Shown here piece after piece: positions 8,561-61,776 of a stretch of 64,000 bases of DNA (position 1 is its first letter; each line of letters begins with the position of its first letter). Under the pieces are notes generated by a model that saw nothing but the letters and a program-made list of their open reading frames with translations, had not been told where the DNA came from and made no database searches. The translations under genes and the position numbers were made by a program. Source of the DNA: Alteromonas sp. LMIT006 (GTDB taxonomy: Bacteria > Pseudomonadota > Gammaproteobacteria > Enterobacterales > Alteromonadaceae); contig NZ_CP101291.1 of NCBI RefSeq assembly GCF_024300645.1, positions 992,001 to 1,056,000 of the forward strand. The letters are read 5' to 3'.

Positions 8561-8590
8561 ACCAAAAAGTCATAACAATCTACTGAACTT

Positions 8591-8638
8591 AGGCGTGAAT
8601 TTTGTCCCGAATGTGGTAAAATCCACGCCTATTTTTTT
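8591..8638 (+). terminator. Rho-independent terminator after cnoX
   Basis: A 13-bp stem with one A/C mismatch pairs 8591-8603 (AGGCGTGAATTTT) with 8618-8630 (AAAATCCACGCCT) around a 14-nt loop. A T-run (8632-8638) follows. It separates cnoX from purA; the purA start is only 25 bases further on, so a role as a leader attenuator for purA cannot be excluded. Confidence 0.8.
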
Positions 8639-25692: not shown

Positions 25693-27974
25693 ACATGCTT
25701 ACCACGCTGCAGCGTATTGTCCAAGAAGTGAATCGAATCCCAGAGATTGAACGGGCATTGCAGTATTTGGTGAGTACGATTAAAGCCACAATGCAAGTTG
25801 ATTCTTGTTCTGTTTACCTTTCTAATTATGACGCACAACATCATGTTCTCACTGCAACGGATGGACTTTCTCCCGATGCGGTTGGTGCGGTCTGTATTGG
25901 TTTTTCTGAAGGATTGATAGGATTGGTAGGTCAGCGTGAAGAACCGCTAAATATCGACGATGCACATCATCATCCGCGGTTTAAACACTATCCTGAGGTA
26001 AAAGAAGAAAACTACAATGCATTTTTGGGCGTCCCAATTATCCATCAACGTCGCGTATTGGGCATCTTGACCATGCAACAAGGTGAACAACGACGGTTTA
26101 GTGCAGATGAAGAAGCTTTTTTGGTGACTCTAGCAACGCAACTTGCATTAGCGATCGCCCACGCAAATACGTTTGGCGAGTTAATGTTCTCAGAGGCCAA
26201 TGCAACGCCAACAGTTGCGCAAGTGATCAATGGTGTACCTGGTTCGACAGGGCTTGGCCTTGGGCGTGGTTATGTACCGGTATTAAGCGCAGACATTGAT
26301 AAAGTCATCCATCGCAAAGCAAGTGATATCTCGGAGCAGATCGTTTTATACCGGCAAGCCGTTGAGGCGACTCGCACTGAGGTTGCACAACTATCATCGA
26401 ATCTGGACGATAGCTTACCAGAAGACGTCAAAGCAATATTTGTGTTGTATGACCAATTATTAGATGCCAATTCTCTTGGGCGCGAAGTTGAAGCACAAAT
26501 TAAAGACGGCTGGGATGCTGCAACTGCTTTAAAACTGGTGATTCAAGATTATGCCGGTCGATTCAAAGCAATGGACGACCCATACATGCAAGAACGCGCA
26601 GTAGATATTGTGGATTTGTCTAATCGCATTCTCAAACACATTATGTTTGATGATACATATACTGCGATCCCACAGGACGATGTTATTGTGGTCGCTGAAG
26701 AACTCAGCCCGACGTTACTAGCGGAATTCCAGAAAGAACGCCTTAAAGGGATAATCACGATCCGTGGTTCACAAAACTCGCATGCGGCGATTTTAGCTCG
26801 TGCCATGGGTATCCCAGCGGTGATGGGGGTAAGCTCTATTCTGCCCAATTTGTTACACAATAAAACCTTGTTTATCGATGGTTATGCAGGTTCTATAATC
26901 GTCAGCCCGTCTGAGGTGCAAGCCAAAGAATGCGCTTTATTAATAGCCGAAGAAGAATCATTGCACGAGCGCATTGATGCGCAAAAAGACCTGCCTACCG
27001 TCACAAAAGATTCTCATCCAATGGATTTGTTTGTTAACGCAGGATTAGCGGCTGACCAAGAGCTAAAAGATAATCAAAACATTATGGGAGTCGGTCTATT
27101 TCGTACTGAAATCCCTTTTATGATGCGCGAACGCTTCCCTTCAGAAGATGAGCAATTTGAGATTTACCGCGGAATTTTGCAGGCGCATCCTGAAAAACCC
27201 ATCACTATGCGCACACTTGATGTCGGTGGCGACAAGCCGTTACCTTATTTTCCTATTGTCGAAGACAATCCATTTTTAGGCTGGCGAGGGATCCGCATGA
27301 CGCTCGACCAGCCGGAGATATTTTTGGTACAAGCCAGGGCCATGATTCGGGCAAGTGAGGATCTCACCAATCTACAAATTTTACTGCCGATGGTGTCATC
27401 GCTTAATGAAGTGCGAGAGGCAAAACGTTTGTTACAACAGGCGTTTTATGAAGTGAAAGAAGAATCGAACAAAAATCGCACTACTTTGATGATGCCCAAA
27501 CTCGGGGTAATGCTAGAAGTCCCTGCGGCGGTACACATCATGGCACAGCTAGCTAAAGACGTGGACTTTTTCTCAGTGGGTACGAATGATTTAACCCAAT
27601 ATTTGTTGGCCGTTGATCGCAACAATCCACGGGTTTCTGCTTTGTATCAAAGTTATCATCCAGCCGTGTTGCAGGTGATGATGCACATTGCTGAGCAAGC
27701 TGAATTACTGAATAAGCCAGTGACCGTGTGCGGAGAATTAGCTGGCGATCCAGCTGGAGCGTTGTTGTTAATGGCAATGGGCTATACCAAACTCAGCATG
27801 AGTGCGTATAATGTGCGCAAGATCAACTGGGTATTGCGCAGTATTCGCTTGTATTCAGCTCAGCACTTGTTAAGTGAAGTACTGAACTTGTCTGATCCGC
27901 ACATCATCAAATCCCATCTTGATGCCTATCTCGAATCACATCAACTGGGCGGCCTTGTGAGAGCCGGCAGTTAA
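25689..27974 (+). CDS. ptsP: Phosphoenolpyruvate-protein phosphotransferase PtsP (EI-Ntr)
   Basis: 761 residues from the ATG at 25689, which overlaps the rppH stop; a longer frame from 25509 would lie inside rppH. PtsP is enzyme I of the nitrogen PTS, passing phosphate from PEP to NPr. Domains: an N-terminal GAF (residues 1-165; [20 protein letters not shown]), then the EI core with phosphohistidine H365 in [15 protein letters not shown], and the PEP-binding barrel with [23 protein letters not shown] and the active Cys of [11 protein letters not shown]. The GAF domain is known to sense glutamine or alpha-ketoglutarate in E. coli. Confidence 0.96.
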
Positions 27975-32288: not shown

Positions 32289-33635
32289 CTAACGCCCTTC
32301 TAAGCGATGTATTTCATGCCGGATTCGATACAAAAACCACAGACTTGGGATCACCATCACGGCCGTTAACACAAAAAACAGCGCCCAATTACCATCCAAG
32401 CCATCGACAATAAGACCGCTGGACGAGGCCAAGAGAGTGCGACCAAATACCCCCAATGAGGCCATAAGTGCATATTGAGTCGCACTGAAGGCTTGGTTGC
32501 ATAGCAAGGATATAAACGCAACCAGCGCCACACTGCTCCATGCTGAGGTAAAGCCGTCCACAAATACCGTCGCAGCAAATAATGCCTGGTTAGGACCCAC
32601 CATAGCCATAAGGGAGAACATCAAATTCGAACTGGCCATTGCAATCCCACCAATCATTAGCCCACGGTAAATGCCATATTTCATATTTACCGCACCACCA
32701 ATCACGGCAAAAATGATCGTTACCCACCAGTTTAACAGTTTGGAGTACGTGCCAATCTCGGAATTGCTAAAGCCAATTTCTTTATAAAAGACAATGGACA
32801 TTCTACCTAAGAACGCTTCTCCGATTTTGAATAAAAAGATGAACAACAAAATGGATAACGCCAAGCGCACCCCATTGCGAGTAAAAAACTCCTTAAACGG
32901 TTCAATGACCGTCACTGCAATCCAGGTAAAGTATTTGCTGTAAGCAGTGTGAGTGCCTACTTTATTTTGAAAGTCAGTTGTGGCTTGCGCTTGCGTGGCT
33001 TGTCGGTTGGTCTGCGGTTCTGATACCCACCACACTGTGATGGATAACAACAACATGACCGCAGCCATCGCCCAATACAATGTGTGCCACTCGAACACTG
33101 GCAAATCTATTAGAAAAAACGGCAATGCCCCCAGCCCACCATAGCCAGTCCACCACCCAGCAGTAGCCATCGCGGACGCGCCGGACAAGGCTTCTTTTTC
33201 ATGTCGCGCAATACTGTCTACGCGAAACGCATCAATCGCAATGTCTTGTGTGGCTGAAGCTACCGCGATGCCCACCCCAAACAGTGCCACAAAATACAAA
33301 TCCGACGTGATATTTAACGTACCCATCATCACACACAATACGATGATGCAACATTGCGTAAGAAGGATCCAACTGCGCCGTTGCCCTAGGCGCCCTAGCA
33401 GTGGTAAGCGTACCCGGTCTAATAAAGGCGACCACAAAAAATTGATGGAGTAGGCCACAAAAATTGACCCGAATAAACCAATGGCAGAACGACTCAGTCC
33501 TGCCTCTTGCAGCCAAGCGGTCATCGCGGAGCCAATTAACACCCATGGGAACCCACTGGCCATGCCCAAGCAGAAAATGGCAAGCAGCCGTTTATCGCGA
33601 TAATAAGAAAAGCTTCGAGTGAGAGTGGCGAGCAA
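32289..33635 (-). CDS. ampG: AmpG-like muropeptide MFS permease
   Basis: 448 residues, 12-14 hydrophobic segments. The N-terminus (LAIFCLGMASGFPWVLIGSAM, given in two parts: LAIFCLGMASG and FPWVLIGSAM), LWSPLLDR and RRSWILLTQ, and ATQDIAIDAFRVD match AmpG, which imports GlcNAc-anhydroMurNAc peptides for recycling. The apparent start is TTG at 33635; no ATG is available before residue 25, and no strong Shine-Dalgarno is visible, so the true start may differ. It fits the peptidoglycan-salvage genes elsewhere in the window but is not linked to an ampR or ampC gene here. Confidence 0.87.
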   Translation of the reverse strand: MLATLTRSFSYYRDKRLLAIFCLGMASGFPWVLIGSAMTAWLQEAGLSRSAIGLFGSIFVAYSINFLWSPLLDRVRLPLLGRLGQRRSWILLTQCCIIVLCVMMGTLNITSDLYFVALFGVGIAVASATQDIAIDAFRVDSIARHEKEALSGASAMATAGWWTGYGGLGALPFFLIDLPVFEWHTLYWAMAAVMLLLSITVWWVSEPQTNRQATQAQATTDFQNKVGTHTAYSKYFTWIAVTVIEPFKEFFTRNGVRLALSILLFIFLFKIGEAFLGRMSIVFYKEIGFSNSEIGTYSKLLNWWVTIIFAVIGGAVNMKYGIYRGLMIGGIAMASSNLMFSLMAMVGPNQALFAATVFVDGFTSAWSSVALVAFISLLCNQAFSATQYALMASLGVFGRTLLASSSGLIVDGLDGNWALFFVLTAVMVIPSLWFLYRIRHEIHRLEGR

Positions 33636-45073: not shown

Positions 45074-46345
45074 ATGTTTAACGCACTAAAAAAAACGGTT
45101 TTTTCCTTCATCGTTATTGCATTGATAGCTGTCTTTATCGTCCTTGAAGGAAAGCCGTTAGTAAGTGTTAACTCAGCTGAGCAAGTTGAAGCTGCTCAAT
45201 CGGTCACTCATCTTTTTAAAGATCTCAATCAGTTACGCGAACGCGACCGCGCCTATCACGATTTAGTTTTAACCACAGCACAAATTAATAGTTTATTAGG
45301 CTTTTTGCAACGTGCCCACCAGCCGTTATCGGCAGGGTTTTATACCCAAGATGATATTGGAAGCTTGTTAGTTACTTATCGTTTCTCTGTTTTTGGAATG
45401 ACTCGCTACCTAAACCTCGATTTGCAACTTACATCCGGTTCGAGAGCGAATATAGAACGGGCTAAATTAGGTAAAATTCCCTTACCAGGAAATGCCCTTT
45501 TGTCTTTTGCGCGATGGAGTGTCAACCAATACACTCGTTCAGAGGTAGCTGACATTGCTTATAATACACTGCAAGGACTCACCTTTGCAGAGCAAACTGT
45601 AACCTTGCTAGTGGCTCCTACCTTACCTTTACTGCAAGAACTCAAAATAGTCCAAGCTCGTATGGGCTATGAAAAACCTGATTTACTCGATTTGAAAGTC
45701 CAAAATTATTTGGATTACTTAGTCAATAATCACAAAACCATTGGCGATAGTGGGCGCTCACTTGCACCTTTCATAAGAGAAATTTTCCTCGAAGCGCAAA
45801 TTCAATCACAATACGGCGACCCTGCACTTGAGAATAAGGCTGCGATTCTAGCGTTAACTATATTTATGGGCGATAACCGCTTTATACGTTTATTTACCCT
45901 TAACGACCGTGTGGAGTATCGAGCTGGGCTCAAGAAACAAGTTACACTGAACAATCGACGTGACTTAGCGTTGCATTTTTTATTCTCTGCAAGTATTGAA
46001 TTGTTATCCGCACAAAGTGTCTCTATTGCGGTTGGCGAATTTAAAGAATTGATGGATAGAGCAGAAGAAGGCTCAGGTTACAGCTTTGTAGATTTGGCAG
46101 CAGACCAGGCCGGGATTGCCTTTGCTGAACGAGCTACCGAGCCCAAAACTGCCGTGCAGATGCAAACTTTACTCGCACAAAAAGCCGATGAATCTTTGTA
46201 TTTACCATTCGTAGATGACTTGCCAGAAGGTTTGAAAGTCAATGCCTTTACCGAACGCTTTAAAAACGTTGACAGCCCAGAGTATCAAGCCAAATTCGAG
46301 ATGATCATTGCGCGAATAAATGCGCTGCCAATTAGTCAGCTTTGA
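45074..46345 (+). CDS. Conserved-looking unknown protein with N-terminal membrane anchor
   Basis: 423 residues; family not recognised. An N-terminal hydrophobic helix (VFSFIVIALIAVFIVLEG, residues 9-26) acts as anchor or uncleaved signal, with the rest likely periplasmic. The body is mainly helical: HLFKDLNQLRERDRAYHDLVL, then a beta-containing part (SLLVTYRFSVFGMTRYLNLDLQL, shown as SLLVTYRFSVF and MTRYLNLDLQL) and long helices with no Cys. The ATG begins at the base after the parE stop, with no space for an independent promoter, so it is cotranscribed with and probably coupled to parE. Its last 14 bases overlap the convergent small gene. Confidence 0.82.
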   Translation: MFNALKKTVFSFIVIALIAVFIVLEGKPLVSVNSAEQVEAAQSVTHLFKDLNQLRERDRAYHDLVLTTAQINSLLGFLQRAHQPLSAGFYTQDDIGSLLVTYRFSVFGMTRYLNLDLQLTSGSRANIERAKLGKIPLPGNALLSFARWSVNQYTRSEVADIAYNTLQGLTFAEQTVTLLVAPTLPLLQELKIVQARMGYEKPDLLDLKVQNYLDYLVNNHKTIGDSGRSLAPFIREIFLEAQIQSQYGDPALENKAAILALTIFMGDNRFIRLFTLNDRVEYRAGLKKQVTLNNRRDLALHFLFSASIELLSAQSVSIAVGEFKELMDRAEEGSGYSFVDLAADQAGIAFAERATEPKTAVQMQTLLAQKADESLYLPFVDDLPEGLKVNAFTERFKNVDSPEYQAKFEMIIARINALPISQL

Positions 46346-46661
46346 GTGATTGTTTAAAGTTGTCTAACGTCGTCATCAATGACTCAATTTGTTTGACAAT
46401 CGTTTGCAGTTTTTTGGTAAGCGCCTCTTTGTCAGAATAGCCATCTTGCATGGCACTGAGCTCATCCAACAACTCGCAGGTTTCAGCAACATAAGGCTCA
46501 AACGTTTTTGCTCTGGTCGAAAAGGGCGCATCCTCTGCAAAAATCGCAACATATTGTCCTTTACCTTGTTGTTGGTAAGATGCTAATAAAGCGTCAGCGT
46601 CGACTGCTTTGCGATAGATGAGTTGAAGATTCGCTTGAATTTGTTCGATGACTTTTTGCAT
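46332..46661 (-). CDS. Small helical protein, possibly PriC-like
   Basis: 109 residues from the ATG at 46661 (MQKVIEQIQANLQ); an upstream extension to 46715 is AT-rich and unlikely. The chain is predicted almost wholly helical. FSTRAKTFEPYVAETCELLDEL recalls the middle of PriC (primosomal replication protein N''), where an LFxTR/T followed by a YLxE helix is common, and the size is close to the shorter PriC relatives. That resemblance is weak and the call is tentative. It lies downstream of epmB on the same strand after a probable terminator and overlaps the unknown gene by 14 bases. Confidence 0.6.
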   Translation of the reverse strand: MQKVIEQIQANLQLIYRKAVDADALLASYQQQGKGQYVAIFAEDAPFSTRAKTFEPYVAETCELLDELSAMQDGYSDKEALTKKLQTIVKQIESLMTTLDNFKQSLKAD

Positions 46662-46725
46662 AGCGTTGTATGATCTATTTGCAGAAAAAATAAAATAATT
46701 ACTCGAGTTTATCATAAATCAGCCA

Positions 46726-46751
46726 ATAAAAAGCCAAATTGTGTTTTTGGC
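46726..46751 (-). terminator. Likely rho-independent terminator after epmB
   Basis: On the minus strand GCCAAA (46751-46746) pairs with TTTGGC (46738-46733) around a 7-base loop, followed by TTTTTATT. The stem is only 6 bp, so strength is moderate. It lies between epmB and the downstream small gene. Confidence 0.45.
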
Positions 46752-46773
46752 GTCACAAGGCAATTACAAAGAT

Positions 46774-47796
46774 TTATACGTCTAGCGATAAGTCGAGCCA
46801 AGTTTTGCTTTTGCGATTGCCAATTTCTCTGACCAATTTGGGGATCATATAACCAGATTGTTTGGCAATGACCTCACGCATCAAAGATACAACCTGTTCA
46901 TCCGATACATAAAAATGAGAGGCCCCTTGTACTTTATCAAACGCATGCAAGTAGTAAGGTTGAATATGATTGTCGTATAGCTTTTCATTGAGATGCATGA
47001 GCGTTTTGGCATCATCATTAATGTTCCTCAAGATGACAGCTTGGTTATAAACTCGGATCAAATTACGTGATAACTGCGCAACTTTTTCACTCAGTTGAGT
47101 GCTGATTTCTTGAGGATGATTAATGTGTAACACCATATTAGCTGTTAGACGAGAGCGCTGCAAACGATCAACTAGACCTGAAGTAATACGTTGCGGAAGC
47201 ACCACAGGGAGTCTGGTGTGAATACGCAATCGCTTAATGTGTGAAATGGTCTCAATTTGACTTATCAGCCAGTCTAATTGACTGTCATTGGCCATGAGCG
47301 GGTCCCCACCAGATAAAATCACTTCATCCAATATGGGATGCTTTTGAATGTATGTTAAAGCATCTTGCCACTGCTGCCGATTGTTGTGATGTTCATTGTA
47401 TGGAAAATGCCGACGGAAACAGTAACGACAGTTGACGGCGCAGCCTGTGCGAACGATTAATAATACGCGATTCTCATATTTGTGCACGATACCATGATTG
47501 GCTTTATCGTGTTCTTGCGTTGGGTCTTGGCCAAAGCCATCCACGCTCAAAAACTCATCTTTGAGAGGTAACACTTGCTGAAGGAGTGGATCATTGGGAT
47601 CGTGTTTGGTCATCAAATCCGCAAAAAAACGCGGTACGCGCATAGTAAATAAGCGTCTCGCTTCAATGTCTGCAAGATAATCGTTTGGGTTTAAACCTAG
47701 GTGTTCTAAGAGATTTTTAGGATCCGTGAATGCGGATGCTAATTCTTTTTGCCAATCGGTCTCTACAGTCACTATATTTTTGTGTATATTATGCAC
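46774..47796 (-). CDS. epmB: EF-P beta-lysylation protein EpmB (lysine 2,3-aminomutase)
   Basis: 340 residues from GTG at 47796. That start leaves 13 residues before the DW of ETDWQKELA, as in E. coli EpmB; the frame also opens at TTG 47811, and a later GTG is at 47772. EpmB is a radical-SAM enzyme that turns alpha-lysine into beta-lysine for EF-P. The cluster-binding CX3CX2C is in [15 protein letters not shown], followed by [16 protein letters not shown] and [13 protein letters not shown]. The gene is divergent from efp-epmA, so the whole EF-P modification set except epmC lies within 2.6 kb. Confidence 0.95.
47749..47778 (+). promoter_or_regulatory. Candidate efp promoter
   Basis: TTGCCA (47749-47754) and TATATT (47773-47778) are separated by 18 bases, a fair sigma-70 pair, 55 bases ahead of the efp start. 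The -10 overlaps the region of the divergent epmB start codons, so efp transcription could interfere with epmB. Confidence 0.4.
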
Positions 47797-47832
47797 GAAA
47801 TTAACCGTCAACTAACTAAGTTAAGAGGATTT

Positions 47833-48402
47833 ATGGCGAATTTTAGCACAAATGAATTCAAAGCTGGATTAAAGGTCATGATTGATGACGAGCCATGCAA
47901 TATTTTAGAAAATGAATATGTTAAACCGGGTAAAGGACAAGCGTTTAACCGTGTCAAAATTCGTAAACTGATCTCTGGCAAAGTATTAGAAAAAACCTTC
48001 AAGTCAGGTGATTCTGTTCCAGGAGCGGACGTGTTAGATACTGAGCTTTCATATTTGTATAACGATGGTGAGTTCTATCATTTTATGAATAACGAAACGT
48101 TTGAACAAGTTGCAGCAGATGCTAAGGCGGTTGGTGATAACGCTAAGTGGTTAGTTGAAAATACGGACTGTACGATTACTTTATTCAACGGCACGCCGAT
48201 TGTGGTCACTCCACCTAACTTTGTTGAGTTGGAAATTACTGAAACCGATCCTGGTTTGAAAGGTGATACTGCGGGAACGGGTGGTAAGCCTGCAACACTT
48301 GCGACCGGAGCAGTGGTTCGAGTGCCTTTGTTTGTGCAAACCGGTGAGATCATCAAAGTGGATACTCGCAGTGGCGAATACGTATCACGTGCTGGCAAAT
48401 AA
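47833..48402 (+). CDS. efp: Elongation factor P
   Basis: 189 residues from the ATG at 47833 ([14 protein letters not shown]), with AAGAGGA ahead. EF-P enters stalled ribosomes at the E site and rescues polyproline synthesis. The modified lysine is K34 in [10 protein letters not shown], the EpmA/EpmB target type. Three beta-barrel domains: KOW-like (1-63), OB (65-128; [13 protein letters not shown]) and the C-terminal OB with [16 protein letters not shown] and the terminal [10 protein letters not shown]. It is 2 bases ahead of epmA. Confidence 0.98.
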
Positions 48403-48404
48403 GC

Positions 48405-49316
48405 ATGACTGACCGCGTGGTCAATTTACAAAAAAAGGCTCGGATCTTATCTCAGATCCGAGCTTTTTTTTCAGAACGTGGCGTCCTCGAAGCAGACGTA
48501 CCATGTCTAGATACTCATGCCGTAACCGACCCTTATTTGACTAATTTTGAGTGTGACTGGCAAGGTCGCAAACTGTATCTACAAACTTCACCAGAATACG
48601 CATTGAAACGATTACTCAGTGAAGGGTTTGGCGACTGTTATTATTTGGGCAAAGCATTTCGCAATGAAGCAAGATCGCCACAACACAGTCCAGAGTTTTT
48701 AATGCTTGAATGGTATCGAGTTGGAATAACACCTACTCATCTCATGGCTGAGATAGCAGAACTCCTTAACTGTATCCTAGGTGTTGACAAGACAGCTTCT
48801 ATTTCCTATGCCGATGCATTTGAGCAATACGCCAATATTGATATTTGGCAAGCTGAGAATGAGCAGCTCATTGCAGCCTTTCCGGGGGAGCCGCATTTTG
48901 ATCTTGCTGCAGAATCGAGAACAGATCTCATCCAAATGCTATTTAGTATCCTAGTTGAACCTCATCTCGGACAAGAGATTCCATGTTTCGTATATGACTT
49001 TCCACTGGAACAAGCAGCTTTGGCCAAAGCAAACCATGATGGGCGGACAGCACAACGTTTTGAGCTCTATTATAAAGGCTTCGAGTTAGCCAATGGTTAT
49101 GGTGAATTGACTGACCCAACTGAACAGTCCAACCGTTTTCAGTGTGATATCGAAAAAAGATCTCGCTTAGGACTACCACAAGTTGCGCCCGATAATAGGT
49201 TATTGGCTGCGCTTGAACATGGGCTACCGCAGTGTAGTGGGGTAGCTCTAGGGGTCGACCGTCTGTGTATGCTGGCTTTAGGGCTTCGCCATATTGATTT
49301 GGTACAATATAATTAA
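48405..49316 (+). CDS. epmA: EF-P--(R)-beta-lysine ligase EpmA (GenX/PoxA)
   Basis: 303 residues, a lysyl-tRNA-synthetase paralogue lacking the anticodon-binding domain. It attaches beta-lysine to Lys34 of EF-P. Class II motifs: motif 2 with KAFRNEARSPQHSPEFLMLEW, given as KAFRNEARS and HSPEFLMLEWYRVG, and motif 3 GVALGVDRLCMLALG. TSPEYALKRLLSEGFGDCYYL is EpmA-typical (TSPEYALKRLL). The start 2 bases after the efp stop, at MTDRVVNLQKK, is the only one that keeps the conserved ILSQIRAFFSERGVLE helix. That helix is encoded by a perfect terminator-like hairpin. Confidence 0.96.
   Translation: MTDRVVNLQKKARILSQIRAFFSERGVLEADVPCLDTHAVTDPYLTNFECDWQGRKLYLQTSPEYALKRLLSEGFGDCYYLGKAFRNEARSPQHSPEFLMLEWYRVGITPTHLMAEIAELLNCILGVDKTASISYADAFEQYANIDIWQAENEQLIAAFPGEPHFDLAAESRTDLIQMLFSILVEPHLGQEIPCFVYDFPLEQAALAKANHDGRTAQRFELYYKGFELANGYGELTDPTEQSNRFQCDIEKRSRLGLPQVAPDNRLLAALEHGLPQCSGVALGVDRLCMLALGLRHIDLVQYN
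48430..48471 (+). terminator. Intrinsic terminator hairpin embedded in the epmA coding start
   Basis: A 10-bp stem, GCTCGGATCT (48438-48447) with AGATCCGAGC (48454-48463), plus a G-U and several A-U pairs, surrounds a 6-base TATCTC loop and is followed by eight T residues (48464-48471). It begins 28 bases past the efp stop and lies within codons 9-22 of epmA. By form it is a strong rho-independent terminator that would cut efp transcripts off before epmA unless read through. Function is inferred from structure only. Confidence 0.75.
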
Positions 49317-49573
49317 TTGGCTTGCTCGTAGACTTTTACGAGATCTTGTAAAACCCATTCAACAATTTGCGCTAATATCTGGTTATCAGAATGTTCTAAA
49401 TGGATGAATACATCGATGGCCTTACAAATCAAGGGTGTTGTTTCTAAAATTTCATCTGGTAATGCTGAACAAGCATGAATGAGCGCTTCCACAGATTCAA
49501 TTTGACAACTTCCCTGTAGAGAAATCTCCTGCAGACAGACATTAAGTTTGTCTTTTAATATTTCTGCAGTCAT
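49313..49573 (-). CDS. Small unknown protein
   Basis: 86 residues, family not recognised. Mostly helical and acidic (MTAEILKDKLNVCLQEI; ICKAIDVFIHLEHSDNQILAQIVEWVLQDLVKVYE in two parts ICKAIDVFIHLEH and ILAQIVEWVLQDLVKVYE). An AGG lies 8 bases before the ATG at 49573. Its stop codon overlaps the convergent epmA stop. Helical content and three Cys are all that can be said; no toxin or antitoxin partner is adjacent. Confidence 0.6.
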   Translation of the reverse strand: MTAEILKDKLNVCLQEISLQGSCQIESVEALIHACSALPDEILETTPLICKAIDVFIHLEHSDNQILAQIVEWVLQDLVKVYEQAN

Positions 49574-49805
49574 AAGGATTACCTACTATTAGTAATACAC
49601 TAAGAGTAGGCTATTTATTACTTGGTTATTGGGATGCCCTTATAAAAGTATTCTTTAGTCTAAATGAATGCTTAGACTTAAGTTTAAAAAGTAGCAATAA
49701 TACATTACTTTACAAGTTTACCTGCGCTTAAAAAACAACCAATATCAAATGTTGATAAACATCTTTTACTAGAAATTTGTGCAAAATAGAGTTACAACGT
49801 CTGCC

Positions 49806-50318
49806 ATGACAACACAAAAATACATCATAATCACTCCATACTATTCGTTACGAGAAATAGATTTAAGGGATGCTCAACAGATTTTGGTTTTAACCAACGA
49901 TCCTGACTGGCTCAAATACATAGGTGATCGGGGCATTTACAGCTACGACAATGCCTTGGCTTATATTCAAGAGCGGTTCATAGCGAGTTACCAAGAGTAC
50001 GGTTTTGGCAGTTGGGCGATTATTGATAATGAAACCGGAGCGTTTATGGGGATCTGCGGTTTATTACAAAGAGAAGCGATGGCGTTTCCAGAGTTGGGAT
50101 ATGCTTTACTCCCGGAATATCGAGGTAGAGGCGTTATTCAAGCGCTTATCCCACCTGTTTTGGAATGGGCAAAACAGCATGAGGTTAGTTTTTTAACAGC
50201 ACTAACAACACCCGATAATCACACGTCCATTCATATTTTAGAAAAGCATGGTTTTACTTTTTCACGCATTCATTTTGAGGAAGATAATTCAATTAATGTG
50301 TATCAACTTATGCTGTGA
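49806..50318 (+). CDS. GNAT-family N-acetyltransferase (RimJ/RimL-like)
   Basis: 170 residues from the ATG at 49806; a GTG at 49779 in frame is an alternative, and neither has a good Shine-Dalgarno. YYSLREIDLRDAQQILVLTNDP is the RimJ/RimL-like opening, ELGYALLPEYRGRGVIQALI is the acetyl-CoA pyrophosphate loop, and TTPDNHTSIHILEKHGF is the closing Asn-Ser helix motif. Such enzymes acetylate ribosomal protein N-termini or small amines; the target is not predictable. It stands alone, with a 205-bp AT-rich region upstream, and converges on the cyclophilin gene. Confidence 0.88.
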   Translation: MTTQKYIIITPYYSLREIDLRDAQQILVLTNDPDWLKYIGDRGIYSYDNALAYIQERFIASYQEYGFGSWAIIDNETGAFMGICGLLQREAMAFPELGYALLPEYRGRGVIQALIPPVLEWAKQHEVSFLTALTTPDNHTSIHILEKHGFTFSRIHFEEDNSINVYQLML

Positions 50319-50325
50319 AGGAGCC

Positions 50326-50940
50326 CTAAAATTGAGGCGGTAAGATCTCAGCTTTTTGCAGAATAATTGGTTCAATCGGCACATCGGGTTGGCCGAAATT
50401 AATTGAATATTCTGTTTCAACCTCACCCATCGCGTCAATGACTTCAAAGCCCTCGACAACTGAACCAAAAACGGTGTAGCCCCAGTTCCGACCGGGATCG
50501 AGTGATTCGTTGTCTTTGAGATTGATAAAAAACTGTCTGGTCGCACTGTGTGGGTCAGTTTCTCTAGCCATTGCAATACTGTAGTAAGTATTTTTTAGGC
50601 CATTGCCTGATTCATTAAAGATTTTGCCGAGCGATGGTTTGCTTTTGTAATCGACTGTATAGCCTCCACCTTGCACGACAAAATCCGGCACCACTCGATG
50701 AAAAATCGTATCTTCATAACTGCGCAGGGCAACATAGCGCAAAAAGTTATTGACGGTGATTGGCGCTTTAAAGCGGTCTAGTTCAAGTATAAATTCGCCT
50801 AGGTTGGTGTTTATTTTGACTCGCGGATAAGCATTGTCTGGCTGAATCTCGGAGCCATCTTTGACTTTCAATGCGAAGCTTGGCGCACTCAAACACAGCA
50901 TCACCATCACACACAAACAGTGAACATATCGCTTTCCCAT
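50326..50940 (-). CDS. Cyclophilin-type peptidylprolyl isomerase, exported
   Basis: 204 residues. A signal peptide (ends PSFAL) suggests a periplasmic location. The cyclophilin core is clear: NTNLGEFILELDRFKAPITVNNFLRYV, IFHRVVPDFVVQGGGYT with the catalytic Arg and Phe, IAMARETDPHSATRQFFINL and GYTVFGSVVEGFEVIDAM. It speeds cis-trans isomerisation at proline in envelope proteins, as PpiA does. It follows rlmG by 3 bases, so the two share a transcript. Confidence 0.94.
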   Translation of the reverse strand: MGKRYVHCLCVMVMLCLSAPSFALKVKDGSEIQPDNAYPRVKINTNLGEFILELDRFKAPITVNNFLRYVALRSYEDTIFHRVVPDFVVQGGGYTVDYKSKPSLGKIFNESGNGLKNTYYSIAMARETDPHSATRQFFINLKDNESLDPGRNWGYTVFGSVVEGFEVIDAMGEVETEYSINFGQPDVPIEPIILQKAEILPPQF

Positions 50941-50943
50941 GAA

Positions 50944-52086
50944 TTAACCTTTTTTGAACGTTGATAGTATGGTGAACTTATCACTATTTGCTTTGACAGT
51001 AAAACCGCCGAAACGCTTTTTCAATATTCTGCCATAGGTTAAGTGCCGGTTCGCAACAATGCGCAATTCACCACCTGGTTTTAATGCAAAATAGCTGTCG
51101 TGAAACATCTGTATAGCAATATGCTCAGTAATGGTGTTATTTTGATGAAATGGCGGATTACACAAAATCAAATCTGCAGGTTCACGCCGTCCATAGTAGC
51201 TCAGACAGTTATTGTGCCAAAACTCGCAATTCGCTAATGCGTTAGGGTGATTGGTTGCCACATTGTGTCGTGCCGAGGCAACTGCATGGTATGATTCATC
51301 GACAAAGGTAACCGATGCTTCTGGGTTAAGGCGCAGCGCAGCGCAGCCTAATACGCCATTGCCACAGCCTAAATCAATGATGCGCTGTCCACTGACAGGA
51401 TGTAGATGCTCTAACATAAATCGCGCCCCAATATCGAGCTGATTGCGAGCAAATACATTAGGCAGATTGGCAATGTTTAACTGATATTCTGGCACTTTCC
51501 AGTGACACATATCCATTTGGTAATCAGACGTTGCAGCTCTGACTTCGGCTCGCAGTAAACGAGATTTTTTCCATGCCAGACCAGTACGATTAGGGCCAAT
51601 GTATTGTTCAAACAAAGCTTGCACATTCTTGGTCATGTTTTGCATTTTACTACCAACTAGCACAATACTGTGTTTATGCAATAATGGACGTAAACGCTGT
51701 AACTGATCAGCCAAAAAGGTGAGATTTTTAGGGAGTTTAATTAATGCTATATCAATTTGCTTAGAGGGTGTTTCAAGTGAGTGACACCAGTTCACCGTAT
51801 CTTCCAATTCATTACTGGCAAGATTGGCTTTGGCCGCTTGCTGGGCAATCAATGAATCGCTCCAATGAGTTAAATGATATTCATGCAAGGCACATGTCAG
51901 CGCCCCAAAATCGTCGTTGAGTATCGCGATATGTGCGTTGGCTAAGCTGTCAACGTGGGTATCGGCAAGCGTGCGTAACAGATACTCATCAGAGGCATCC
52001 CATGCTTGTAGGGACTTGTGTTGTGCTCCACGAGGATAGCGATGTAATATGTGTGTGCCAAAAGCGTGTGTTAATTCAATCTGCAT
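50944..52086 (-). CDS. rlmG: 23S rRNA (guanine-N2) methyltransferase RlmG
   Basis: 380 residues from the ATG at 52086 (MQIELTHAFG); the frame reaches 52191 but the extra part overlaps alkB. RlmG methylates G1835 of 23S rRNA. It has two Rossmann halves: an N-terminal degenerate one and a C-terminal SAM-binding one with DIGARFMLEHL, IIDLGCGNGVLGCAALRLNP and the amino-methyltransferase motif LILCNPPFHQN. It is divergent from alkB with 20 bases between the start codons. Confidence 0.94.
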   Translation of the reverse strand: MQIELTHAFGTHILHRYPRGAQHKSLQAWDASDEYLLRTLADTHVDSLANAHIAILNDDFGALTCALHEYHLTHWSDSLIAQQAAKANLASNELEDTVNWCHSLETPSKQIDIALIKLPKNLTFLADQLQRLRPLLHKHSIVLVGSKMQNMTKNVQALFEQYIGPNRTGLAWKKSRLLRAEVRAATSDYQMDMCHWKVPEYQLNIANLPNVFARNQLDIGARFMLEHLHPVSGQRIIDLGCGNGVLGCAALRLNPEASVTFVDESYHAVASARHNVATNHPNALANCEFWHNNCLSYYGRREPADLILCNPPFHQNNTITEHIAIQMFHDSYFALKPGGELRIVANRHLTYGRILKKRFGGFTVKANSDKFTILSTFKKG

Positions 52087-61744: not shown

Positions 61745-61776
61745 AAAACGCATCTCAGCTAACCAAGATGCGTTTT
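61745..61776. terminator. Bidirectional terminator between nagA and fadA
   Basis: A perfect 11-bp stem pairs AAAACGCATCT (61745-61755) with AGATGCGTTTT (61766-61776) around a 10-base loop, with an A-tract on one side and T residues on the other. It suits the convergent nagA (+) and fadA (-) genes. Confidence 0.88.

Follow-up and report, generated by a model that had tools for sequence, protein, structure and literature searches.

In the window (the whole 64-kb stretch of DNA that was analysed), the gene for elongation factor P, efp (47833-48402, + strand, 189 aa; recognized from its sequence and by NCBIfam TIGR00038, with 256.4 bits against a cut-off of 185.8, and PRK00529.1), is followed on the same strand by epmA (genX; 48405-49316, 303 aa), which encodes the EF-P lysine aminoacylase or beta-lysine ligase (NCBIfam TIGR00462, 354.6 bits; cut-off 286.9). 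The gene for the EF-P beta-lysylation protein, epmB, lies on the - strand, divergent from efp (46774-47811; NCBIfam TIGR03821, 461.4 bits; cut-off 369.3). The TAA stop codon of efp occupies 48400-48402 and the ATG of epmA begins at 48405, two bases past it, just as the initial annotation had read it. A consensus scan gave a candidate efp promoter, TCTACA-17-TATATT (47762-47790, + strand), and no promoter-like site on the + strand between the efp promoter region and the epmA ATG, which is a weak test; the scan returned 15 sites in 46000-51500 against 12.3 in shuffles. Judged by eye, the 20 bases upstream of epmA hold no obvious Shine-Dalgarno sequence. At its other end, epmA overlaps by four bases a convergent ORF of 86 aa (49313-49573, - strand).

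The hairpin and its strength

Behind efp, and wholly within epmA, the stretch 48430-48471 consists of seven As and a G, a perfect 10-bp stem, a six-base loop and eight Ts. The A tract (48430-48436), which belongs to Lys codons and can pair in part with the T-run, is interrupted in two close relatives (L002 and L003). The 5' arm of the stem, GCTCGGATCT, spans 48438-48447, the loop TATCTC 48448-48453, and the 3' arm, AGATCCGAGC, 48454-48463. The eight Ts (48464-48471) comprise the last base of Ala20, the TTT TTT of Phe21-Phe22 and the first base of Ser23. All ten pairs are perfect and six are G-C, where an intrinsic terminator calls for at least 5 bp, some GC and a short loop, and the T tract abuts the stem without a spacer, as the U tract of such a terminator does. 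The description of the stem, loop and eight Ts in the initial annotation can thus be read directly from 48438-48471. Its distances need adjustment: 28 bases after the efp stop is right for the start of the A-run, and 35 bases separate the stop from the stem itself (33 nt past the first base of the epmA ATG); codons 9-22 become codons 12-23 for the stem and T-run, or 9-23 with the A-run. A start of EpmA on the 3' side, which would leave the hairpin untranslated, is rejected: no in-frame ATG, GTG or TTG lies between the hairpin and codon 45 (none from codon 5 to codon 45), so that a start past the hairpin would cost EpmA its helix. Between the ATG and the stem there is also a small 5-bp hairpin, TGACC-GCGT-GGTCA (48410-48423, + strand), which by eye is kept in L002 and weaker by a single pair in L003.

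For the RNA of 48403-48480 the fold energy is -30.9 kcal/mol, whereas 200 dinucleotide shuffles give -14.3 +/- 3.06 and none of them reaches the real value (z -5.4). The minimum-free-energy fold, of which one was inspected, and its centroid both contain the full stem. Such shuffles do not respect the protein. The helix A-R-I-L-S-Q-I-R-A, which together with the rest of the helix before Phe-Phe we take to be motif 1 of class II synthetases, is nearly palindromic at the codon level and is followed by Phe-Phe; we therefore took as null the permutation of synonymous codons within the gene, which leaves the protein unchanged and the codon usage of the gene intact. Only 38 in 100,000 permutations of the window epmA fold as well as the real gene, and 443 in 100,000 place a perfect 10-bp stem at exactly the same position. 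The stability is thus above chance under the coding constraints as well (z -5.4; 38 in 100,000). A looser terminator criterion is passed by about 9.5% of the permutations. The site is thus predisposed, its EpmA helix (A-R-I-L-x-x-I-R-A-F-F) being a near codon palindrome that runs into two Phe codons, possibly TTT TTT.

In a scan of the 64-kb window for hairpins of -14 kcal/mol or lower before at least six Ts in eight, six sites were found, two of which are this hairpin, once on each strand. Two others (8590-8631 and 61747-61774) lie between ORFs of at least 100 aa, and the remaining two (27274-27318 and 32379-32421) lie inside such ORFs and have long imperfect stems. A dispersed repeat or REP-like element is rejected, as a search of the 2.53-Mb assembly that allowed up to 3 mismatches matched this site only, on both strands. 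A known RNA family is rejected likewise: of the four Rfam matches with E up to 1, none reaches its gathering score. The best is Thr_leader over 48362-48472 on the + strand (33.1 bits against a gathering score of 55, E 0.0015; 27.8 bits on the minus strand), for which the terminator-like hairpin is the probable cause. Read on the minus strand, the stem (48430-48463) is followed by C and seven Ts and looks bidirectional; since this T-run is broken in L002 and L003, no bidirectional terminator is claimed.

Terminator-like hairpins at the site across Gammaproteobacteria

We collected 278 gammaproteobacterial loci, of which two (L031 and L032) were the window's own genome again and six were identical to others, leaving 270 distinct epmA genes; these were mostly the better-scoring EpmA matches and do not form a random draw. 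One search gave EpmA matches in 306 of 370 genomes, from which 28 new loci and 60 stretches were used; a search of the window's family gave matches in 201 of 226 genomes, from which 20 new loci and 48 stretches were used; and 12 further stretches came from order-level matches. In that family, 46 of 49 genera have a match and 25 of the 226 genomes have none at E 1e-45; the 20 of these 25 that were listed belong to three genera (g17, g64 and g67), and in these genomes EF-P may be modified by another route or remain unmodified. The genes fall into three classes: efp directly upstream without a detected intergenic terminator (class A, n = 142), an intergenic terminator found (class B, n = 72), and no efp found within 300 nt upstream (class C, n = 56). 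EF-P was sought with the window protein as sole query (tblastn, E 1e-8), and for 10 of the 56 class C loci less than 700 nt of upstream sequence was at hand, so that efp may have been cut off. The idea arose in a first set of 122 loci, and the 148 obtained later served as a repeat set; the terminator-like criterion was fixed when the outcome of the fold-energy test was already known for both sets.

The distance from the efp stop to the first in-frame ATG has a median of 10.5 nt across the 106 class A loci that have an ATG, compared with 65 nt across 70 class B loci. In relatives with room between the two genes the terminator stands in the gap, as in 25 of the 26 loci titled Pseudoalteromonas, which are class B. 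In class A, a terminator-like hairpin ends at Phe-Phe in 34 of 142 genes, where codon permutation leads one to expect 14.4 (P 5e-5, the lowest value that 20,000 simulations can give). The corresponding counts are 2 of 72 in class B (3.9 expected) and 3 of 56 in class C (2.5 expected; 2 of 46 against 2.1 once the 10 loci with short upstream sequence are removed). The later 148 genes repeat the pattern, with 17 of 80 in class A (6.9 expected, P 1.5e-4), none of 29 in class B (1.2) and 1 of 39 in class C (1.0). Fold energy at P<0.01 agrees, the first and later sets giving 9/62 and 7/80 in class A, 0/43 and 1/29 in class B, and 0/17 and 0/39 in class C; at P 0.05 the controls are somewhat high too (8/56 in class C, 5/72 in class B). 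Within each of three GC bands the class A excess persists (P 0.0017, 0.0008 and 0.0063), and it does so too when the 19 of 142 loci whose efp stop lies more than 130 nt before Phe-Phe are set aside (32 of the other 123 against 13.0 expected).

The excess is not confined to close kin, as seen when the genes are merged into clusters scored as embedded by majority: 24 of 109 class A clusters have the hairpin at 75% identity linkage (10.0 expected, P 1.5e-4), 18 of 85 at 65% (7.2, P 1e-4), 11 of 42 at 60% (3.1, P 1.5e-4) and 5 of 14 at 55% (1.5, P 0.0055). At 65% the controls stand at 0 of 20 in class B (0.7 expected) and 2 of 36 in class C (1.6 expected); at 55%, one of the four class C clusters has the hairpin (0.1 expected), which speaks against the pattern. 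With the window's kin left out, the summed fraction is 16.9 of 83 against 7.1 at 65% (P 8e-4) and 4.0 of 12 against 1.3 at 55% (P 0.017). On a FastTree tree of the 270 EpmA proteins, the fewest changes of the embedded state number 29, of which 23 fall within class A. A tree-aware pair test, in which only 10 independent pairs on supported branches are available, gave on average 2.3 pairs with class and 1.0 against it (median p 1), and a comparison of A with B only, on 8 pairs, gave 2.1 with and 0.0 against (median p 0.5).

The T-run follows the same pattern. Phe-Phe is nearly always present at the site (140 of 142 genes in class A, 70 of 72 in B, 54 of 56 in C), so part of the T-run comes free, and we took the expectation for TTT TTT from the Phe codons in the rest of the same gene. 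Behind a hairpin, class A genes use TTT TTT in 33 of 59 cases against 20.5 expected (P 1.5e-4), and without a hairpin in 48 of 81 against 40.9 (P 0.048). No significant excess appears in class B (1 of 4 with a hairpin, 1.6 expected; 44 of 66 without, 46.9 expected) or class C (3 of 6 with, 2.8 expected; 24 of 48 without, 32.0 expected). The earlier suggestion that one stretch serves two purposes appears to be right, in that hairpin and T-run go beyond the protein's need in class A alone.

The hairpin is not required, being absent from 108 of the 142 class A genes and from 6 of the 10 genomes of the window's genus. Nor is a squeezed gap a sufficient cause, and we rejected it as such: class A is nearly universal in genus g52, whose genes resemble those of Idiomarina sp. 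MD25a (19 of 19 genomes), and in genus g26 (25 of 26), while the hairpin occurs in only 6 of 19 and 4 of 26 genomes, respectively. Five Idiomarina-like loci of g52 (L061, L087, L088, L090 and L092) form a separate subclade in which this epmA site carries a hairpin of its own, at about -21 kcal/mol; in L061 it has 16 pairs, and its sequence is unlike that of the window.

The stem in close relatives

The genus comprises 10 genomes including the window's own, and the nearest named EpmA records belong to 'Glaciecola sp.' MAGs, at 96% and 77% identity. Retention of the stem in close relatives, which the initial annotation had proposed as a check, is found in three of the nine others (L002, L003 and L004) and fails in six (L005-L010). 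The stem is identical in L002 and includes two G-U pairs in L003; in L004, whose EpmA is 54-55% identical, one pair has changed on both sides from C-G to A-U at third codon positions, and there is one mismatch. The same annotation had proposed a test for compensatory pairs at third positions, and this change is such a case. Across the four sequences, however, a both-sided change affects one pair and a one-sided change two pairs, a score reached by 121 of 500 shuffles, and four sequences are too few for a claim of covariation. Slower synonymous change in the stem codons is not borne out either: between the window and L003, 4 of 13 stem codons differ synonymously against 120 of 226 overall, and 39 of 212 gene windows are as slow; between the window and L002 the figures are 0 of 13 and 25 of 284, and 113 of 289 windows are as low.

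In L005-L010, the epmA gene has a longer N-terminus, and no hairpin at the site reaches the terminator-like criterion, with weak ones in L008 and L010. Within the first ~20 epmA codons of these genomes, other hairpins without a T-run lie close behind the efp stop; that of L006 has the arms AGCCGGTGT and ACACCGGCT, and its counterpart in L008 shows a change from C-G to U-A. Tested by codon permutation after they had been seen, the start-region folds of L005 to L010 gave, in order, P values of 0.0075, 0.0025, 0.017, 0.0012, 0.11 and 0.029, and the six share no more than a weak common fold (-3.7 kcal/mol).

A putative efp terminator within epmA

The hairpin at the locus is far stronger than the protein requires, and the sequence statistics show that, among the Gammaproteobacteria sampled, such hairpins and T-runs are in excess only in class A genes. 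Found in class A only, this excess of hairpin and T-run is best read as efp's own terminator, placed inside epmA since the gap was lost. We thus consider it likely, from the sequence, that the hairpin is the intrinsic (Rho-independent) terminator of efp, lodged in epmA codons 12-23 where almost no gap remains. RNA polymerase would mostly stop at 48464-48471 and release an efp mRNA with a 3' hairpin. Every transcript with the epmA start would have to pass the hairpin, which lies past that start, so EpmA would be made from leak-through messages, translated probably by re-initiation behind the efp stop. The cell should require less of the enzyme EpmA than of EF-P, on which it acts, and we infer plentiful efp mRNA and little epmA mRNA.

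The geometry of the locus is consistent with this reading. According to the available part of a study in E. coli (PMC4824070), the tR2 terminator has its maximum efficiency (about 0.9) beyond about 27-30 nt past a stop codon, a terminator 30 bp past an AUG works without ribosomal repression, and ribosomes did not repress terminators located within the first 100 bp of a coding region. The distances of 35 and 33 nt match this range of good termination and no promoter-like site was seen, so most efp transcripts likely end in the T-run; by analogy with the E. coli terminators, the geometry predicts full termination. Among the results that count against a terminator, embedded stems lie at a median of 60.5 nt past the efp stop, compared with 19 nt for intergenic ones.

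Alternatively, the hairpin could be a coding coincidence, in which the helix A-R-I-L-x-x-I-R-A-F-F favors palindromes and T-runs, and the window holds a strong draw with weak or no termination and no selection. Many of the above results fit this idea: the loose criterion is passed by 9.5% of the permutations of the window gene, class A is inherently more prone to such hairpins (mean permutation rate of 0.101, compared with 0.054 in B and 0.044 in C), six of the ten genus members do without the hairpin, the stem codons are not clearly conserved, and the tree-aware test, with its 10 pairs, has a median p of 1. However, the strength at the locus was reached by just 38 in 100,000 permutations, and L002-L004 retain the stem. 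Moreover, the excess is counted over that proneness, occurs only in class A and was repeated in the later set, for the hairpin and TTT TTT alike. We therefore regard coincidence as unlikely.

A second possibility, which the initial annotation had raised, is a translation-coupled attenuator, in which ribosomes re-initiating on epmA disrupt the hairpin and readthrough reports translation. Coupled re-initiation is plausible because epmA starts 2 nt past the efp stop and no obvious Shine-Dalgarno sequence precedes it. Furthermore, pyrBI and the leader attenuators of amino-acid operons act via ribosomes on overlapping leader genes, as the available part of PMC4824070 describes. The Thr_leader match (33.1 bits, E 0.0015) over 48362-48472 would point the same way; we take this sub-threshold match for chance. 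On the other hand, a stem 35 or 33 nt away should be out of reach for a ribosome positioned at the efp stop or the epmA AUG, and in the same part of PMC4824070 E. coli terminators within the first 100 bp of a coding region were not repressed. Control of the hairpin by ribosomes translating epmA is therefore less likely, and we hold the attenuator to be decidedly improbable. In leader-peptide attenuators, too, the terminator overlaps a translated region and readthrough sets downstream expression (PMC4824070, in part), but at efp-epmA the overlapped ORF encodes the enzyme and not a separate leader peptide, and the geometry disfavors control by ribosomes.

About as improbable, in our view, is a stem that acts on translation or stability, as a structure at the epmA start site or as 3' protection of processed efp mRNA, with a T-run that is merely Phe-Phe; the other start-region folds of L005-L010, which lack a T-run (permutation P 0.0012 to 0.11), are in its favor, but a hairpin for translation control would not need TTT TTT, which is enriched behind class A hairpins and not in B or C, and here the T-run exactly abuts the stem.

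A terminator of efp within epmA has partial counterparts in known systems. Terminators inside coding sequences, including near the ORF start, have been reported before (PMC7815308, PMC10319736 and PMC4824070, each as far as available). The construct W48 of lambda tR2, in which the natural lambda insert brings the NinA initiation site, likewise has a terminator 30 bp past an AUG and tens of bp past a stop codon. It is, however, a reporter construct with a short ORF (PMC4824070, in part), whereas efp and epmA are conserved, functionally linked genes and the putative terminator lies in the codons of a conserved helix. Mapping of 3' ends in E. coli (PMC7815308) and Borrelia (PMC10319736) revealed, in the available parts of these catalogues, 3' ends inside coding sequences, some with the scores of intrinsic terminators; the data there are RNA data, whereas the evidence here is comparative and assigns the terminator to the upstream gene. 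We found no report, in an open-access literature search that covered few subscription papers, of a conserved gene's terminator being kept in the codons of its functional partner, in several lineages and at the same protein motif.

EF-P itself has been tied to termination inside coding regions. In the available part of PMC5021804, EF-P affects intrinsic termination through transcription-translation coupling, as it helps to keep ribosomes close behind RNA polymerase. That work differs from ours in using polyproline reporters and the rsxC and narY sites of E. coli, and a word search of its main text returned no mention of epmA. Since EF-P keeps ribosomes near RNA polymerase, its activity could influence the leak-through from which EpmA is made. 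It would be tempting to combine the two ideas, such that the EpmA helix before Phe-Phe has repeatedly been recruited as the efp terminator where the gap was lost, and EF-P tunes the supply of its own modifier through EF-P-dependent leak-through at a terminator that lies in the modifier's codons. This combination is speculative, and we consider it quite unlikely.

If the hairpin is the efp terminator, a terminator can survive when the gap between two genes closes, encoded within the coding sequence of its downstream neighbor, and a conserved protein motif can ease such embedding. The site would then carry a dual code and come with natural controls, namely the relatives with a terminator in the gap and those without efp upstream. 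An annotation based on distance only would label efp-epmA a simple operon; despite this operon-like look, EF-P and EpmA would be kept at unequal levels by termination.
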